DNA from: an uncultured Collinsella sp.
GTDB lineage: Bacteria; Actinomycetota; Coriobacteriia; Coriobacteriales; Coriobacteriaceae
NCBI GenBank assembly: GCA_900552155.1
Contig: URYU01000097.1
Coordinates: 1 to 6,874 of the forward strand
Direction: 5' to 3'
DNA: 6,874 nucleotides
Shown piece by piece: positions 1 to 6,874 of the stretch (position 1 is the stretch's first letter; each line of letters opens with the position of its first letter). The notes under the pieces are model-generated. The model saw only the letters and a program-made list of their open reading frames with translations. It did no database searches and was not told the DNA's origin. A program made the position numbers and the translations under genes.

Positions 1-493
1 CGCCGCACATGTGGTCGCGCGCGACGACGGCAGCGAGATTGGTGATGCCATCGTGGAGGCCGCCGATGAGTGTCACGCCAATGTCGTGCTCACCTGCGGC
101 GGCACGGGGCTTTCGATGCGCGATGTGACGCCCGAGGCGACGCGTGCCGTCTGCGACCGCGATGTGCCGGGTATTGCCGAGGCGATCCGTGCGTACTCCA
201 TGACCAAGACGCGCCGCGCCATGCTCTCGCGCGCTATTTGCATGCAACGAGGTCATACACTTGTCGTAAACTTTCCCGGTTCTACGAAGGCCGCCCGCGA
301 AAGCTGGGAGGCCATAGCAGATCAGCTGGAGCACGCAGCTCAGATGACAGCGGGCGGCGGACATACCAATTATGCGGTTTACCTGCGGCGGGGCGACCTA
401 AACGGCTGCTCCGCCTTTGTTTTCCGCCGAAGCGACGCCGAGGTGCACGCTAACTCGAAACTATATTCTCTGGCGAGAATAATTTCTCACTAA
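1..493 (+). CDS. MogA/MoaB-type molybdenum cofactor biosynthesis protein, 5'-truncated by window edge
   Basis: This family (MogA, MoaB, Cnx1-G) binds molybdopterin and adenylates it before molybdate insertion, in the cytoplasm. The frame (first full codon at 2) is open to the left edge, so the start and probably about 50-60 residues are missing; the GTG at 11 is unlikely to be the start. Family marks are the glycine loop CGGTGLSMRDVTPEAT (about 101-148), close to MogA's TTGGTGPARRDVTPDAT, then DVPGIAEAIR, the MLSRA segment, and NFPGSTKAARESW (about 275-313), equivalent to MogA's NLPG-K. A CinA domain is less likely because the RDVTP form is typical of Mog proteins. The conserved part ends near AGGGH (about 364). 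The last ~40 residues match nothing I know, use rarer codons (CTA, CGA, AGA, ATA) and overlap a terminator and an operator, so they look like a read-through tail. The family call is firm; whether it is MogA, MoaB or part of a fusion cannot be decided. Confidence 0.85.
   Translation, partial: AAHVVARDDGSEIGDAIVEAADECHANVVLTCGGTGLSMRDVTPEATRAVCDRDVPGIAEAIRAYSMTKTRRAMLSRAICMQRGHTLVVNFPGSTKAARESWEAIADQLEHAAQMTAGGGHTNYAVYLRRGDLNGCSAFVFRRSDAEVHANSKLYSLARIISH
387..423 (+). terminator. Rho-independent terminator lying inside the 3' end of the mog-type ORF
   Basis: GGCGGGGC (387-394) pairs with GCTCCGCC (408-415) over 8 bp with one G-U pair. The loop is 13 nt, and TTTGTTTT (416-423) follows at once. 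This is a textbook intrinsic terminator. It lies 70 bases before the ORF's stop (491-493), which is odd for a working gene end and suggests the coding region once stopped just before it. It would separate the cofactor gene from the mod operon. Confidence 0.7.
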
Positions 494-501
494 CATTATT
501 C
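464..501. promoter_or_regulatory. Operator-like nested inverted repeats upstream of modA
   Basis: TATTCTC (464-470) and GAGAATA (475-481) form a perfect 7-bp inverted repeat around TGGC. GAGAA (475-479) is also an inverted repeat of TTCTC (484-488), so the half-site occurs three times (466, 475, 484) at exact 9-bp steps. GAATAAT (477-483) is further repeated inverted as ATTATTC (495-501). The cluster covers the expected -35 region of the modA promoter, a usual place for a repressor. Molybdate operons are often controlled by ModE, whose E. coli site contains TATAT-type dyads. The resemblance here is partial and the regulator is not in the window. Confidence 0.5.
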
Positions 502-510
502 GCGCAGAAG

Positions 511-516
511 TATAAT
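511..516 (+). promoter_or_regulatory. Probable -10 box of the mod operon promoter
   Basis: TATAAT at 511-516 is a perfect sigma-70 -10 hexamer, 61 bases before the modA ATG. I find no convincing -35 hexamer at 16-18 bp spacing. Either an activator is needed or the -35 is weak. The dyads at 464-501 lie where the -35 should be. Confidence 0.55.
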
Positions 517-532
517 CTGGTTGCAGATTAAA

Positions 533-571
533 GCCCGCGGTGGGGTACCCGGGCACAAGGTCCGAAAGGGT
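533..571 (+). promoter_or_regulatory. Short foldable 5' leader of modA that can pair with its ribosome-binding site
   Basis: GCCCG (533-537) can pair with CGGGC (550-554) around a 12-nt loop. Alternatively ACCC (547-550) can pair with GGGT (568-571), which covers the purine-rich ribosome-binding site of modA (GAAAGGG, 564-570). The two pairings share bases and exclude each other. The stems are short and the region is GC-rich, so this may be chance. It does not match a riboswitch class that I can recognise with confidence. Confidence 0.25.
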
Positions 572-576
572 TGAAT

Positions 577-1452
577 ATGTTCGATTTGGTTTCTCGCCGC
601 GGATTCGTCTCACTTTCTGCTGTCGCCGCTGCCGGCCTTGGTCTTGCCGGTTGCTCGGGCAGCAAGACGTCCGAGCCGGCCGGATCCGATGCCGGCTCCG
701 CCAAGGCCTCTTCCAAGAAGGAAACCGTCGAGCTGCAGGTCTTTGCCGCCAACTCCCTCGAGAAGGCCCTTCCCGAGGTCCAGGAGCTCTACACCGACCA
801 GACCGGCACCACCTTTGCCGATACGCAGTTTAAGGCCTCCGGCGACCTCGTTGAGCAGATGAAGGCCGGCGCCACGGTCGACGTGCTCATCACCGCTTCC
901 AAGGGTACCATGGATGACGCTGAGACCGCCGAGCTCGTCGACGCCGACACGCGTGAGGACATGTTCGTCAACGACCTCGTGATTATTCGCGCCGAGGGCT
1001 CCGACACCAAGATCGAGGCCATCGCCGACGTCGCGAACCTGGACGGCAAGATCGCCATCGGCGACGCCAAGACCGTCCCCGCCGGCAAGTACGCCAACCA
1101 GGCGCTGGCTTCCGTGGGCCTCTACACCGGCATCGAGGGCGACGACGGCGAGTATGCGCCCGAGATCGCCGACAAGGTGGCCCTGGCCGACAAAGTTGGT
1201 ACCGCCGCCGCCTATGTGTCCACGGGCGACTGCGTGGCTGGATTTGTCTACAGCTCCGATATCTTCCGCTACGACGGCATCGAGGAGGCCTTCGTGTGTC
1301 CCGAGGACTCGCACAAGCCCATCGTGTATCCGGGTGCCGTTGCCGAGAGCTCCGAGCACGCCGACGAAGCCAAGGCGTTCATCGACTTCTGTCTGACCAA
1401 CAAGAAGGCTCAGAAGATTTGGGCCAAGTACGGCTTTGAGCTTTCCGCGTAG
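577..1452 (+). CDS. modA: Molybdate ABC transporter substrate-binding lipoprotein ModA
   Basis: ModA captures molybdate (or tungstate) outside the membrane and delivers it to ModBC. The ATG at 577 (291 residues) has GAAAGGG six bases upstream and is preferred over an in-frame TTG at 571. Residues 6-10 read SRRGF, a twin-arginine-like motif, followed by a hydrophobic stretch and the lipobox LAGC (23-26), so Cys26 should be lipidated. A low-complexity Ser/Ala/Lys linker follows (about 27-48). The binding fold shows AANSL (57-61, equivalent to the AAASL oxyanion loop), SGDLVEQMKAGATVDVLITAS (about 88-108, in two parts), NDLVII, IAIGDAKTVPAGKYA (about 159-173) and a YPGAV segment near the C-terminus, all in ModA order. 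It is the first gene of modABC. It could be a tungstate-preferring variant, which sequence alone cannot settle. Confidence 0.93.
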   Translation: MFDLVSRRGFVSLSAVAAAGLGLAGCSGSKTSEPAGSDAGSAKASSKKETVELQVFAANSLEKALPEVQELYTDQTGTTFADTQFKASGDLVEQMKAGATVDVLITASKGTMDDAETAELVDADTREDMFVNDLVIIRAEGSDTKIEAIADVANLDGKIAIGDAKTVPAGKYANQALASVGLYTGIEGDDGEYAPEIADKVALADKVGTAAAYVSTGDCVAGFVYSSDIFRYDGIEEAFVCPEDSHKPIVYPGAVAESSEHADEAKAFIDFCLTNKKAQKIWAKYGFELSA

Positions 1453-1520
1453 TGCGGCTTGGCGCGATAATTCCATCGTTTTGTGTTTCACTCCGTTCTT
1501 GTATTCGCTTGGAGCTTTTC

Positions 1521-2963
1521 GTGCTTAATAGATTCCGCATGCTTGTCGCCTGTGCTTTGACCTTCGCGCTTTGCTGGGTGCCGGGATTTGCGTTTGCTGG
1601 GGACGCTGAGGACGGGGCCCAGGTTGCTGCGACCGCTCATGGGCTTTCCTATGGGATCGAGGGTTTTGAGCGGCTGGCCAAGGGGACCGCTCGTGCCATG
1701 GAGGGCCAGCCTGAGGGCTACCGGTTTCCCGTTGACGAGGACGTGGACCTTGTGGTGGCGCCTGCTGCCGATCGCGTTGTGGTGTGGATATCGCCCAAGG
1801 CGGTCGAGAAGTATGGATTGGATCCGCAGGACAACGAGTGCGTATCGGGGCTCAAGGCCCTCGTCTGTAAGCTCGACAGCGCAAACTGCATGGGAGGTGC
1901 GCAGCTGGGGGACGTGGATCTTCCTTGGTATGTCACGGCGGAAACAACGTTTGATTCCGGCGGGTATACCTATGGCTTTGACGAGCGCGGTGCGGATGGG
2001 GACCGCTATGTGGTGATTGCATCAGCCTCGGGTGATGCCAAGGGCGGCGCGCGTTGGCTTGATAGCGCTCACATGGTAGAAGCATCGTCTGTCGTATTGC
2101 GGGATGAGCAGGGGCCCTGGACCTCTCTGACCTCCTTTTTGTGCGACATCGACTATCGCCCGGTTTGGGTGTCCATTTATACGAGCGGTCTTGCCCTGGT
2201 GATCGCGTTTGCGCTGGGCCTGTTCGCCGCGTGGAAGACCATGGGTACCTCGAGTCGCATCAAGGGCCTGCTCGATTCGGTCTTTACGATTCCTATGGTG
2301 CTGCCGCCTACGGTGTGCGGCTTTTTGCTGCTTATGCTATTTGGTCGATCGACCGGGGTCGGTCGGTGGCTTATCGCGCACGGCGTCTCGATTGTCTTTA
2401 CGTGGCCGGCGGCGGTGATCTCTGCCGTGGTGGTGTCGTTCCCGCTCGTCTATCGTACGGCACTCGGAGCCTTCGAGAGCCTCGACACGCAGATGCTCGA
2501 CGCCGCGCGAACCTTGGGATGGTCCGAGCGTCTCATCTTTACCAAGCTTATGATGCCGCTTGGGTGGCCCTCTATTGCCGCCGGCACGGTGCTCGCCTTT
2601 GCCCGCGCGATGGGCGAGTTTGGCTGCACGCTGTTCTTTGCGGGCAACTACGCCGGTATTACGCAGACCATTCCCATCGCCATCTACTTTGAGTGGATGG
2701 GCGGCAACACGTCGGTGGCCCTCTTTTGGGTCGTCGTCGTGATTGTCTTTAGCTTTTTGGTCATCCTGTTCATCAACATGTACACCGCTCATTCGCAAAA
2801 GTATCGCGAGCGGGGCCTTTCCCGTGCGGAGCGCAAACAGGCCAAAGATCTCGCCGGACAGGGCGATTCGCTCGACCCAGTCGGCGGCGATGCCCTGCGT
2901 ATCGATCGCGAGGCGCTGGCCGAGCTCATGCGCGATGATGCGGCGCCGCAGGGAGGTCGATAG
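1521..2963 (+). CDS. modB: Molybdate ABC transporter permease ModB with an extra N-terminal extracytoplasmic domain
   Basis: ModB forms the membrane channel of the molybdate importer. I place the start at GTG 1521, with GGAG at 1511-1514 six bases upstream. It gives a clear signal peptide (basic LNRFR, hydrophobic core, AFA before Gly27) and 480 residues. An earlier in-frame GTG at 1452 overlaps the modA stop and lacks a ribosome-binding site; ATG 1539 is a fallback. Residues ~27-210 are a soluble domain I do not recognise, with cysteines 107, 116, 123 and 208. The permease proper starts near residue 215 with several membrane segments and contains the coupling (EAA) loop DAARTLGWSERLIFTKLMMP from about 327, with its conserved Gly, followed by PSIAAGTVLAFARAMGEFG. 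A charged cytoplasmic tail occupies ~422-480. Ordinary ModB proteins are only about 220-230 residues, so this one is about twice as long. Codons in 1540-1960 (many GGG, GCT) look less biased than in the neighbours. Confidence 0.88.
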   Translation: MLNRFRMLVACALTFALCWVPGFAFAGDAEDGAQVAATAHGLSYGIEGFERLAKGTARAMEGQPEGYRFPVDEDVDLVVAPAADRVVVWISPKAVEKYGLDPQDNECVSGLKALVCKLDSANCMGGAQLGDVDLPWYVTAETTFDSGGYTYGFDERGADGDRYVVIASASGDAKGGARWLDSAHMVEASSVVLRDEQGPWTSLTSFLCDIDYRPVWVSIYTSGLALVIAFALGLFAAWKTMGTSSRIKGLLDSVFTIPMVLPPTVCGFLLLMLFGRSTGVGRWLIAHGVSIVFTWPAAVISAVVVSFPLVYRTALGAFESLDTQMLDAARTLGWSERLIFTKLMMPLGWPSIAAGTVLAFARAMGEFGCTLFFAGNYAGITQTIPIAIYFEWMGGNTSVALFWVVVVIVFSFLVILFINMYTAHSQKYRERGLSRAERKQAKDLAGQGDSLDPVGGDALRIDREALAELMRDDAAPQGGR

Positions 2964-2966
2964 GTC

Positions 2967-3842
2967 ATGTCACTCGTTCTGGATATCAAAAAGCGCTATC
3001 CCGGCTTTATGCTCGACATGCAGCTTGAGGCCGGCGAGGAGCGCGTGGCGCTGCTGGGCGCCTCGGGTTGTGGCAAGAGCTGCACGCTGCGCTGCATTGC
3101 CGGTGTGGAGACGCCCGACGAGGGCAAGATCGTCGTCAACGGCGTGACCTTTTTTGACTCGGGGGCGGGCATCAACCTGTCGCCCCAGGAGCGAAAATGC
3201 GCCCTGCTGTTCCAAAACTATCAGCTGTTCCCTAATATGACAGTGGCCGATAACGTATGTGCCGGCGTAAAGGATGCGGGCGACGCCGCGGCGCGCAAGC
3301 AGCTTGCCGAGCGCTACCTGGGTATCTTTGGACTGGCCGATTTTGCCGACCGCTATCCCGCGCGACTCTCGGGCGGTCAGCAGCAACGTGTGGCGCTTGC
3401 GCGCATGGTGGCGGCGCATCCGGGCATTTTTATGTTCGACGAGCCCATGAGCGCACTCGATTCCTATCTTAAGAGCGCCCTCGAACAGAACATGCTCGAC
3501 CTGTTCGATGTATGCAACCGCACCGTGCTCTACGTGAGCCACGATATTGACGAGGCATGCCGCCTGTGCGAGCGCATTTGCGTGATGCATAACGGACATG
3601 TCGAGGAGATCGGCTCCGTCGAGGACGTGGTCCGCCGTCCGCAGACGCTGGCGGCGCTGCGCCTGACGGGCTGCAAGAACACAAGCCGGGCGCGCAAGAT
3701 CGGCGACGAAGAAGTTGAGGCGCTCGATTGGGGCATGACCTTTAACGTGGGTCGCGAGGTTCCCGATAATGTGGCGTACCTGGGCATTCGCGCGAGCTAC
3801 TTCCATGTGGACAACCGTGCCGCGCGGGGTCGCAACAGCTAA
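2967..3842 (+). CDS. modC: Molybdate ABC transporter ATP-binding protein ModC, prematurely terminated in the TOBE domain
   Basis: ModC is the ATPase that drives molybdate import through ModB. ATG 2967 lies 3 bases after the modB stop with GGGAGG at 2951-2956, so translation is probably coupled. The nucleotide-binding domain is complete: Walker A GASGCGKS (31-38), Q-loop FQNYQLFPNM (82-91), signature LSGGQQQR (134-141), Walker B FMFDEP (155-160), D-loop SALD (162-165) and switch histidine SHD (191-193). The C-terminal molybdate-type regulatory (TOBE) region begins after about residue 230. The frame stops at TAA 3840-3842 after 291 residues, but the same frame continues open for 64 more codons to TAG 4035-4037. 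That gives 356 codons in all, close to E. coli ModC (about 352). The ATPase core should still work; the TOBE domain would be cut. TAA is not a known recoding signal here, so a nonsense mutation or a sequencing error is likely. Confidence 0.88.
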   Translation: MSLVLDIKKRYPGFMLDMQLEAGEERVALLGASGCGKSCTLRCIAGVETPDEGKIVVNGVTFFDSGAGINLSPQERKCALLFQNYQLFPNMTVADNVCAGVKDAGDAAARKQLAERYLGIFGLADFADRYPARLSGGQQQRVALARMVAAHPGIFMFDEPMSALDSYLKSALEQNMLDLFDVCNRTVLYVSHDIDEACRLCERICVMHNGHVEEIGSVEDVVRRPQTLAALRLTGCKNTSRARKIGDEEVEALDWGMTFNVGREVPDNVAYLGIRASYFHVDNRAARGRNS

Positions 3843-4037
3843 GACCTGCACGAGGCGCGCGTGAGCGCATCGCGTTTTGAGCGCCTGGTGCTGTTGGATG
3901 CGCCGCGGGCCGATGCGCCAACGCGTCTGCAGTGGAAGGTCAACAAATTGAGCGTACCAGCGGATGGGTTACCGCAAGAAGGCGAGACCCTGCGTATGCA
4001 TTTTGATGCCAGCAGGATCCATCTGGTTTGTCGGTAG
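3843..4037 (+). pseudogene. modC: Severed C-terminal end of modC (second half of TOBE domain)
   Basis: Directly after the TAA at 3840-3842, the modC frame stays open for 64 codons to TAG 4035-4037. The product begins DLHEARVSASRFERLVLLDA and ends RMHFDASRIHLVCR, which looks like ordinary protein, with G/C-rich third codon positions like the rest of modC. Its length completes a normal ModC, and the operon terminator starts 12 bases after the TAG. All three facts say this is the rest of the gene, not intergenic DNA. A GTG at 3861 with GAGG at 3852-3855 could in principle allow restart after the stop, giving a separate peptide of 58 residues, but I consider that unlikely. Confidence 0.75.
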
Positions 4038-4048
4038 CGCCGGGTAAT

Positions 4049-4083
4049 GCCGTCGGGGATATAAGTCTCGGCGGCTTTGTCTT
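4049..4083 (+). terminator. Probable Rho-independent terminator of the mod operon
   Basis: GCCGTCG (4049-4055) pairs with CGGCGGC (4069-4075) over 7 bp with one wobble. Three weaker pairs (4056-4058 with 4066-4068) can extend it inward. It is followed by TTTGTCTT (4076-4083). It starts 12 bases after the TAG at 4037, as expected if modC originally ended there. The tail is interrupted by G and C, so efficiency may be moderate. Confidence 0.55.
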
Positions 4084-4170
4084 GCCGTTCGCCGAATGGG
4101 GAATGACAAACTCTTATCAACACAGATAATTATTTATTAAACGACGGCACACGAGGTTGTCGTACGAATG

Positions 4171-4219
4171 TCAACGGTGTTCGCATGGTCGACGACCGTT
4201 GATATAGTTGACCTCAACT
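4171..4219 (+). promoter_or_regulatory. Promoter with extended -10 and flanking TCAAC/GTTGA operators, upstream of the first double-cubane gene
   Basis: TATAGT at 4203-4208 is a good -10, preceded by the extended element TGA (4200-4202). TTCGCA (4180-4185) is a weak -35 at 17-bp spacing. TCAACGGT (4171-4178) and ACCGTTGA (4195-4202) form a perfect 8-bp inverted repeat with centres 24 bp apart that brackets the -35 and spacer. AGTTGACCTCAACT (4206-4219) is a second perfect dyad across the -10 and probable start site. The half-site TCAAC also occurs at 4117-4121, near an AT-rich patch (4125-4140) that might hold another promoter. The repeated half-sites suggest a dimeric regulator; which one is unknown. 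Confidence 0.5.
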
Positions 4220-4238
4220 TGTAGAGGAGGGTGCGCAC

Positions 4239-4307
4239 ATGCCGCAGACGACATACATTCGCCGCGTTGCCGCGCGTGCCCTATATATGGCTCGGAGCCG
4301 CATATGA
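4239..4307 (+). CDS. Possible 22-residue leader peptide
   Basis: A perfect AGGAGG (4225-4230) stands 8 bases before ATG 4239, giving a 22-codon frame that ends at TGA 4305-4307. The peptide starts MPQTTYIRR and holds five arginines. It does not resemble any protein known to me. It lies just downstream of the predicted promoter and 160 bases before the dehydratase-like gene. Its stop falls inside a stem-loop (4291-4330), so ribosomes finishing it would disturb that stem. This layout fits a regulatory upstream ORF. The very strong ribosome-binding site is the main support; the short length means it could be a relic. Confidence 0.4.
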   Translation: MPQTTYIRRVAARALYMARSRI

Positions 4308-4330
4308 GCAGGTATGTTCACGGCTCCGGG
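4291..4330 (+). promoter_or_regulatory. Stem-loop overlapping the end of the leader ORF
   Basis: CGGAGCCG (4293-4300) and CGGCTCCG (4321-4328) are perfectly complementary. With one wobble and one more pair (4291-4292 with 4329-4330) the stem reaches 10 bp. The 20-nt loop carries the leader ORF stop codon and a small CATA/TATG pairing (4301-4304, 4313-4316). There is no T-tract after it, so it is not a simple terminator. Confidence 0.4.
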
Positions 4331-4353
4331 AGAGACGACGCACAACTAAATAA

Positions 4354-4463
4354 CCGTCCGCAAGGCAGGTTCCCTAAAATTCCGGGTTTGAGCACGGCCG
4401 GACAATCGCCGTCCGTCGTGCATCGATACCGCCGTTATCCGTTTTTGGTTCGAGAGGGGAACC
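4354..4463 (+). promoter_or_regulatory. Structured 5' leader that can hide the ribosome-binding site of the first double-cubane gene
   Basis: GGTTCCC (4368-4374) is perfectly complementary to GGGAACC (4457-4463), which includes part of the ribosome-binding site GAGAGGGG (4452-4459) in front of ATG 4467. Inside lies a 10-bp hairpin: GCACG (4392-4396) with CGTGC (4417-4421) and CGGAC (4399-4403) with GTCCG (4411-4415). CCGTCCG also occurs earlier at 4354-4360 and could take the same CGGAC. A third, weaker option pairs CGGACAAT (4399-4406) with GTTATCCG (4434-4441), one mismatch, right before TTTTT (4442-4446), which resembles an attenuator. These pairings exclude one another. No known riboswitch class was recognised. 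Confidence 0.4.
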
Positions 4464-4466
4464 GTC

Positions 4467-5750
4467 ATGGCTGAAGAATTTGATTTCCATCCGATGTGGG
4501 AGAGCCTCGGCATGAATCTTGCCGACCACGACCTGCTGCTGGGCGCCGTGGGCCAGATGTACGGCGATATGTTCCTGACGCAGAACAATCGCCCCAAGTC
4601 TACGTCCTACCTGGATTTTGTCGCCACCAACATCCACAGCGGCCGTATTAAGGAGATGCTCGACAAGAAGGAGGCCGGCGAGGCCACCAAGATCGTCGGC
4701 TCGTTCTGCGTCTACGTGCCCGAGGAGATCGTACTTGCCTGCGACGGTATCCCCGTGGGTCTATGCTCTGGTGCCGATTGGGCAACCGATAAGGTCGAGG
4801 AGCACCTGCCGCGCAACACCTGTCCGCTTATCAAGAGCTTTGCCGGCTTTAAGCTGGGCGAGGTCTGCCCCTACATTGAGTCGAGTGACTTGGTGGTAGG
4901 CGAGAACACCTGCGACGGCAAGAAGAAAGCCTACGAGTTTTTTGCCACGCAAAAGAACATGTACGTCATGGATATTCCCAACGTACACGACGAGTCGACG
5001 CTCGTGACCTGGAAGGCCGAGGTCAAGAAGCTCGCCGACAAGATCGAGGAAGAGTGTGGCGTCAAGATTACGCCCGAGCGTCTGAAGGCCGCCATCCACG
5101 CCGTCAATGAGAAGCGTCGCGCCCTGCAGCGCCTCGCAGCCACGCGCGCTGCCGACCCGGCGCCCATCAGCGGTCTCGACAGCCTGCTGACCGTTCAGGC
5201 CGCCTTTATGGACGACACGCCGCGTCTGACCGGAGCCATCAACGATATGGCGGCTGAGTGCGAGCAGCGTGTCGAGGCCGGCGAGGGCGTGACGCCCAAG
5301 GGGACCAAGCGCATCCTGTACACCGGTACGCCCATGGCCGTGCCCAACTGGAAACTGTTCAACCTCATCGAGAAGGCCGGCGGCGTTGTGGTCGGCGAGG
5401 AGTCCTGCACGGGCTCGCGCTACTACAAGGACCTGGTCGACGAGTCCGGCGAGACGGTCGACGAGATGCTCGACGCCATCGCCGAGCGCTACTTTAAGAT
5501 CAACTGCGCCGTCTTTACGCCCAACGACCAGCGTATGAAGGACATCGTTCAGATGGCCAAGGACCTGCATGTAGACGGCATCGTCGACGTGGCCCTGCAG
5601 TTCTGCACGCTCTACGAGATGGAGTCGTTTGCCGTGGAGAAGGCCGCCGAGGAGGTCGGCATTCCGTTTATGCACATCACGACCGACTACGCTGGCGAGG
5701 ATGCAGGTCAGTTACAAACCAGGATCGAAGCTTTCTTGGAGACCATTTAG
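4467..5750 (+). CDS. 2-hydroxyacyl-CoA dehydratase D-subunit family protein (double-cubane-cluster anaerobic reductase type), complete
   Basis: The family includes HgdB/FldC-type dehydratase subunits and the double-cubane-cluster proteins, cytoplasmic iron-sulfur enzymes that receive low-potential electrons from an ATP-hydrolysing activase. The start is ATG 4467, after GAGAGGGG at 4452-4459; 427 residues. E. coli YjiM (about 380 residues) is matched along the length: GSFCVYVPEEIVLA (78-91), LPRNTCPLIKS (114-124), CPY (134-136), DLVVGENTCDGKKKAYE (141-157), ESCTGSRYY (312-320), INCAVFTPNDQRMK (345-358), QFC (378-380), and a C-terminal TTDY-GQLQTRIEAF. Cysteines 119, 134, 149, 314, 347 and 380 are the likely cluster ligands. 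The first ~45 residues exceed YjiM's N-terminus. YTGTPMAVPNWKL (285-297) has Thr288 where YjiM and the next gene have TGCP. The substrate is unknown and no activase gene is in the window. A long folded leader suggests control after transcription starts. Confidence 0.88.
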   Translation: MAEEFDFHPMWESLGMNLADHDLLLGAVGQMYGDMFLTQNNRPKSTSYLDFVATNIHSGRIKEMLDKKEAGEATKIVGSFCVYVPEEIVLACDGIPVGLCSGADWATDKVEEHLPRNTCPLIKSFAGFKLGEVCPYIESSDLVVGENTCDGKKKAYEFFATQKNMYVMDIPNVHDESTLVTWKAEVKKLADKIEEECGVKITPERLKAAIHAVNEKRRALQRLAATRAADPAPISGLDSLLTVQAAFMDDTPRLTGAINDMAAECEQRVEAGEGVTPKGTKRILYTGTPMAVPNWKLFNLIEKAGGVVVGEESCTGSRYYKDLVDESGETVDEMLDAIAERYFKINCAVFTPNDQRMKDIVQMAKDLHVDGIVDVALQFCTLYEMESFAVEKAAEEVGIPFMHITTDYAGEDAGQLQTRIEAFLETI

Positions 5751-5765
5751 GACTATCCGCCCCGG

Positions 5766-5867
5766 CGGCTTTCCCGGGCACCCGATCTTGCCGTTCAAAC
5801 CGTCGCTTGTGTACCAAAGTACGCGGCGCTCCTCTTTTACGGCAACCTCGGGCACCTGGGAAAGCCG
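5766..5867 (+). promoter_or_regulatory. Long structured RNA element between the two double-cubane genes
   Basis: CGGCTTTCCCGGGCACCCG (5766-5784) pairs with CGGGCACCTGGGAAAGCCG (5849-5867): 10 perfect pairs, a G-U, two G-C, two mismatches, then four more pairs. After a symmetric 3/3 internal loop, TTGCCGT (5788-5794) pairs perfectly with ACGGCAA (5839-5845). At the tip, GTGTAC (5809-5814) pairs with GTACGC (5819-5824) around CAAA. About 102 of the 150 intergenic bases form this single folded arm. The ribosome-binding site of the next gene (5892-5896) lies outside it. The following TTTCCTTGG is not a real T-tract. It may be a cis-regulatory RNA, a processing or stability element, or a repeat. 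I could not assign it to a named class. Confidence 0.55.
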
Positions 5868-5900
5868 TTTCCTTGGTTGGTTGAAAGGTTTAGGAGTTAT

Positions 5901-6874
5901 ATGTCGGAAAATATTGAGCAGCCGTTGCCGTCCACGTTTGAGGAGTTCAACGAGCAGCGCAAGGCGGCGTTTATTCGCGTCAAGGATTATAAGCAGGCGG
6001 GTAATCGCCTGGTCGGTTTTCTGTGCAGCTACACGCCGCTCGAGATTATCGATGCCGCGGGGGCTGCGAGCGTGGCGCTGTGCGGCACGTCCGACGAGGT
6101 GATTCCCGAGGCCGAGAAGGTGCTGCCGGCAAATCTCTGTCCGCTCATCAAGTCGACGTACGGCTTTGCCTACTCGCAAAAGTGCCCGTTTACGTACTTT
6201 AGCGACATGATCATCGGTGAGACCACCTGCGACGGCAAGAAGAAGATGTACGAGCTACTCAACGAGCTCAAGCGTACGCACATTCTGCACCTGCCGCAGG
6301 GTCGCGATCGCGCCTACGAGCGTGAAGGCTGGTACGAGGAGTGCCGCCTGCTCAAGGAGGAGCTCGAGAACTTCTACGGCATCGCGATTACCGACGATGA
6401 TCTGCGCGCTGCCGTCCGTCGTCGCAACCGCTTGCGTGCGGCCCAGCTCGAGATGTTTGCGCTGCAGGCCAACCAGCCGGCGGCCATGAGCGGCGTCGAT
6501 CTGATGAGCACCATGTTTGCCGGTACGTTCAGCTTTGATATCGAGGCCTATACGCAGCAGCTGGAGCAAAAGGTTGCCAAGCTGCGCGAGACCTACGACG
6601 CGGGTGAGCGCCCGGTCGCGGCAGACGCCAAGCGCATTCTGATCACCGGCTGCCCGGTGGGCGGCGTGATCAACAAGATCGGCCGTACTATCGAGTCCAA
6701 CGGCGGTGTGGTCGTGTGCATGGACGACTGCTCGGGCGAGCGCACGGCGGCCATGATGATCGACCCGGAGGCTCCCGACATTCTGCGCGCCATCGCCGAC
6801 CGCTATCTGGATATCAACTGCTCGGTCATGACGCCCAACGACGGTCGTATGGAAAACACGCTGGCCATGTGCGA
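5901..6874 (+). CDS. Second double-cubane-cluster / 2-hydroxyacyl-CoA dehydratase D-subunit family protein, 3' end outside window
   Basis: ATG 5901 follows AGGAG (5892-5896) by four bases. The frame is open for 324 codons to the right edge, so about 55-60 residues are missing by comparison with the first copy. It aligns with E. coli YjiM nearly from its start: LVGFLCSYTPLEIIDAAGA (37-55), LPANLCPLIKSTYGFA (75-90), CPFTYFSDMIIGETTCDGKK (95-114), RILITGCPVGGVINKIG (245-261), DDCSGE (275-280), INCSVMTPNDGRM (305-317). Likely cluster cysteines are 80, 95, 110, 277 and 307, matching the first copy; the sixth lies past the edge. It lacks the first copy's long N-terminal extension and has Cys251 (TGCP) where that one has Thr. 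It is a diverged paralogue in the same direction, 150 bases downstream and probably co-transcribed. The activase (YjiL/HgdC type) would be expected nearby, but none is in view. Its role may be electron transfer or reduction of an unknown substrate. Confidence 0.88.
   Translation, partial: MSENIEQPLPSTFEEFNEQRKAAFIRVKDYKQAGNRLVGFLCSYTPLEIIDAAGAASVALCGTSDEVIPEAEKVLPANLCPLIKSTYGFAYSQKCPFTYFSDMIIGETTCDGKKKMYELLNELKRTHILHLPQGRDRAYEREGWYEECRLLKEELENFYGIAITDDDLRAAVRRRNRLRAAQLEMFALQANQPAAMSGVDLMSTMFAGTFSFDIEAYTQQLEQKVAKLRETYDAGERPVAADAKRILITGCPVGGVINKIGRTIESNGGVVVCMDDCSGERTAAMMIDPEAPDILRAIADRYLDINCSVMTPNDGRMENTLAMC

Follow-up and report, generated by a model that had tools for sequence, protein, structure and literature searches.

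The closest described systems are ModABC importers and the MalK-type ABC ATPases. The ModC of Methanosarcina acetivorans (3d31_A) has the ATPase domain in common with the ModC analysed here and aligns over residues 2-353 with an overall r.m.s.d. of 13.2, which we take to mean that the domains are placed differently. A shorter ModC chain (2onk_A; 240 residues, presumably its natural length) also shares the ATPase domain and aligned only to residue 238. MalK-type ATPases with a C-terminal domain (9bcr_D, 4tqu_S and 7x0q_A) serve other transporters and are 29-31% identical; the modC frame described below stops inside this C-terminal domain. According to a review (PMC10710835), transport by Methanosarcina ModC stops when molybdate or tungstate binds to its C-terminal domains. 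Much closer is the ModABC of Collinsella aerofaciens D40t1_170626_B5 (locus L018), in which 290 of the 291 ModC residues preceding the stop are identical to those of our locus. The two differ in that L018 has an open 356-codon modC with Tyr at position 292 and a moaB-like gene that ends at a TAA.

The window, that is, the whole stretch of 6,874 nucleotides that was analysed, carries on its + strand the 3' end of a moaB-like gene (upstream part of the window, frame as read to 493; PF00994 match), modA for the molybdate-binding protein (577-1452; TIGR01256, 139 bits, cut-off 62.5), modB for a permease with a long N-terminal extension (1452-2963; TIGR02141, 202 bits, cut-off 182.6, residues 239-444 of 503) and modC. 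Two double-cubane reductase genes lie at 4467-5750 and from 5901 to the window end (NF040772). When ModB is read from GTG 1452, about 230 residues precede the permease domain (1452-2160), and no Pfam family scored above its cut-off there. The nearest relatives of the window are C. aerofaciens contigs, with L018 sharing 98.3% DNA identity across the whole window. The two are near-identical up to 4795 and again from 6578; between about 4796 and 6577 there are many differences, mostly synonymous and most of them common to other relatives, and this tract may be either recombined or a chimeric assembly. Shortly before the second double-cubane reductase gene, at 5891, four bases that are present in L018 are deleted. 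The window has 11 private transitions, nine of them beyond 5600, which look like ordinary divergence.

As read, modC (2967-3842, +) comprises 291 codons and a TAA and includes the whole ABC ATPase domain and the first part of the C-terminal domain (PF00005, TIGR02142). The preliminary description had reported an in-frame TAA at 3840-3842 that interrupts modC, with the same frame continuing without a shift to a TAG at 4035-4037. Translation of 2967-4037 bears this out, giving 291 residues, the TAA, 64 residues and the TAG, or 356 codons with the TAA counted. The remainder (3843-4037, +; 64 open codons and the TAG) is identical to L018 from 3870 onward, and the 356-codon frame is open in the close Collinsella relatives L001-L018 and L022. 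The operon terminator that was said to follow the TAG stands less firmly: a terminator-like hairpin with a T-rich tail is present at 4049-4075, but at about chance level (one found; mean of 0.6 and s.d. of 0.7 in shuffles).

The ATPase motifs are whole, as had been claimed, with a complete ABC ATPase domain (PF00005, residues 17-161, E = 8.2e-30). The ModC translation contains GASGCGKS, LSGGQQQR and MFDEP, at columns that are invariant or nearly so in 35 relatives; these are the Walker A, signature and Walker B motifs. The ModC family model TIGR02142 (modC_ABC) gives 197 bits, below its cut-off of 285, when scored on the 291-residue piece, for which the top NCBIfam model is that of another ABC family, TIGR03265 (PhnT2), at 211 bits, also below its cut-off (457.7). 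The name ModC is given because of the position beside modA and modB, whose models (TIGR01256 and TIGR02141) score above their cut-offs. The TAA had further been placed inside a TOBE domain. The C-terminal placement is right by fold, but there is no sequence match to a TOBE family: Pfam found none in the two ModC pieces of the window and none in four intact relatives. An intact relative is predicted to fold like MalK from end to end, C-terminal domain included, and in this prediction residue 292 is the start of a strand (residues 291-301). If the TAA is real, ModC would keep its ATPase domain and would be predicted to lose this strand and the later strands of the MalK-like C-terminal domain.

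To compare codon 292, 55 loci were examined by tblastn. A search of genome contigs had given 50 loci, from which L027-L050 were left out as ABC ATPases of other groups (at most 40% identity); the 55 consist of the 25 coriobacterial loci among L001-L026 that reach the compared part of modC (all but L025) and 30 loci of the same genus, L055-L084, the best 30 of 37 matching genomes (37 of the 43 genomes of the genus matched). They are partly redundant, since many genomes are represented twice, and collapse into 37 groups when loci with 1,400 identical bases in a row are pooled. The relatives carry a sense codon at position 292, Tyr in 53 loci (28 TAC, 25 TAT) and Phe in two, and a stop in none of the 55, so a natural early end of ModC at this point is rejected. 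A single base change would account for the TAA, as proposed, since it is one base from the codon of the nearest relative, L018. Two further residues altered in the window, V296 and D301, are invariant in all 55 loci. At residue 286 the window state, Ala, occurs naturally in seven of the 55, all distant and one with the same codon. No 291-residue protein was present among the best 120 matches listed in either protein search, where clusters hide members.

Changes private to the window were identified in an alignment with 20 relatives. Over 1-4795 the window differs from L018 at 18 positions, none of them in 2494-3822 (1,329 bases) or in 3870-4795 (926 bases). Between these clean stretches, five differences fall within 47 bases (3823-3869, +), at 3823, 3842, 3853, 3868 and 3869. 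All are transversions and all are private (19 of the 20 aligned relatives cover this part), and they produce E286A, Y292stop, V296E and D301A, the last by two adjacent bases. The window has 12 private transversions in total. A second cluster lies in modB (2163-2180, +), where those at 2163, 2178 and 2180 give F238V and K243Y (numbering from GTG 1452). At 373, a transversion abolishes the moaB-like stop codon (371-373, +), so that the frame runs on through 374-493; all 20 aligned relatives have TAA there. Two more are close to the window start (5 and 30, +), and one, at 5038 (+), gives A191D in the first double-cubane reductase gene. The 12 transversions touch ten codons and alter the meaning of every one relative to L018; within 6.9 kb two reading frames are damaged, as modC acquires a stop and the moaB-like gene loses its own.

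At columns that are constant in all other sequences, the singletons of the window number 14; nine are transversions, and eight of these change an amino acid. The corresponding figures for 18 pooled relatives are 416 singletons, 79 transversions and 37 amino-acid-changing transversions; the pool excludes two of the 20, L003 and L014, whose counts (405 and 259) were inflated by aligned non-homologous stretches. The share of transversions is thus 9/14 in the window against 79/416 in the pool (Fisher p = 3.6e-4), and that of nonsynonymous transversions 8/14 against 37/416 (p = 1.5e-5). Among single relatives, L010 has 14 transversions among 47 singletons. At least four of the 14 window singletons fell within 50 bases in 16 of 20,000 shuffles. 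Five of the 18 pooled relatives (L002, L011, L013, L015 and L016) likewise reach four or five singletons within 50 bases, and because these are as dense, density alone is not distinctive of the window. What does set it apart is the mix of transversions and altered invariant residues. Among the 11 gaps that separate the 12 private transversions, seven span no more than 30 bases, a number reached in none of 100,000 shuffles (maximum five), with the set chosen and the test made after the cluster had been seen.

One contig therefore holds an excess of private, clustered, meaning-changing transversions, the pattern looked for in base-call or assembly error. Clustered substitution errors occur in assembled contigs, as tight groups of private transversions that are indifferent to codon meaning; the window resembles them, by inference from sequence comparison. 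Because the changes are private, mostly transversions, bunched, blind to codon meaning and in part located at invariant positions, we consider that the 3823-3869 cluster, the modC TAA included, most probably arose from wrong base calls or an assembly error in one contig and is not an evolved truncation. The preliminary description had offered error or a lone strain-specific nonsense mutation; the former is favoured, while the five-transversion cluster, the invariant residues and the lost stop of the moaB-like gene speak against the latter. A real burst of mutation can also produce clustered transversions, which counts against error as the cause. We thus regard as unlikely, but to be taken seriously, that the TAA is a real and very recent strain-specific nonsense mutation, probably acquired within such a burst. 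It might then leave a 291-residue ModC with the whole ATPase domain and part of the C-terminal domain, importing molybdate without feedback control. The sense codon in all 55 relative loci is what a strain-specific mutation would leave, the ATPase domain is intact, and the predicted fold of the intact relative has the strand at 291-301 and those after it falling beyond the stop. A solved ModC chain (2onk_A, 240 residues) is without the C-terminal domain, and a frameshift affects the same domain in other Collinsella proteins. Transport by Methanosarcina ModC is stopped via the C-terminal domains, as the same review (PMC10710835) has it. Such a mutation would, however, need five transversions in 47 bases flanked by identity to L018 over 1,329 bases before and 926 after, as well as the further private transversions elsewhere in the window, and two of the residues altered, V296 and D301, are invariant in the 55 loci. 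A structural cause of error was not seen at the modC cluster, which folds no better than shuffles (z of 0.83 and 1.56 on the two strands of L018 and 1.49 in the window). The modB cluster folds better than most shuffles (z of -1.38 and -2.24; 15 and 4 of 200 shuffles did as well), at most a hint of hairpin-caused error. A changed 22-base word had no exact match in viral contigs. Adenine-targeted diversification, as by a diversity-generating retroelement, is rejected, as the original bases at the five modC positions are A, C, T, A and T.

Import of the changed stretch by recombination from a diverged copy appears highly improbable. The window is indeed mosaic relative to L018 downstream (about 4796-6577), but the changed states at 292, 296 and 301 occur in none of the 55 loci, and the longest words around the changes that recur in the window are 7-11 bases, much as at 150 random places (7-13). 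A search of the window and of the 10.9 kb of L018, the only two sequences searched, yielded no donor for the changed words; with no donor word longer than 11 bases in either, gene conversion and template switching are rejected. Readthrough of the TAA, or its recoding to a sense codon, to give full-length ModC is scarcely credible. The frame does stay open for 64 more codons of conserved sequence, but this is expected after any fresh change or error. TAA is in use as a stop, since the moaB-like gene of all 20 aligned relatives ends with it, and a comparison of the window with Rfam gave no family at its gathering score. With ordinary sense codons at this position in 55 of 55 loci in addition, recoding is rejected, in agreement with the original statement that TAA has no known sense recoding here.

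Other Collinsella ModC sequences show a different disruption. Judged from their protein sequences, four clusters from different Collinsella backgrounds (P0056, P0074, P0079 and P0123) leave the frame in the same way past ModC residue 272 and terminate prematurely. Three of the shifted proteins have 298 residues, and P0123, with a later start, has 258. P0056 is identical to L018 in residues 1-272, and loss of any one G from the GGG at modC nucleotides 816-818 (window 3782-3784; context CCTGGG in L018) reproduces it exactly. None of the 298-residue proteins listed shows a base lost from the GGGG runs at 764 or 860, although these are longer. With the shifted tail as query, three of the four clusters were among the matches listed, with no further significant match (P0074 has the tail and was unlisted). 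Systematic sequencing error at a methylated CCWGG site or a real recurrent mutation may explain the shared frameshift. The frameshift leaves the reading of the TAA unchanged because the shifted tail of P0056 matches the letters of L018 and not those of the window. We consider it quite improbable that ModC of gut Collinsella loses its C-terminal regulatory domain time and again, through one recurrent frameshift in four or more allelic backgrounds and through the stop in the present case, so that molybdate import switches from feedback-controlled to unrestrained. A probably artefactual ModC end is also seen in the protein database, where P0124 ends in LSLIHI, presumably sequencing-adapter read-through.

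With substitutions all around the TAA, a call of truncation needs read support first. A count of the private transversions that cluster at constant columns is a simple test, applicable wherever an assembled contig shows a lone stop codon. Lost regulation of molybdate uptake could wrongly be read from a conserved transporter gene that is broken in one contig. If the cluster is an error, as we favour, modC in the source cell would be intact, and its product would be a 356-residue ATPase serving an ordinary ModABC importer of molybdate.
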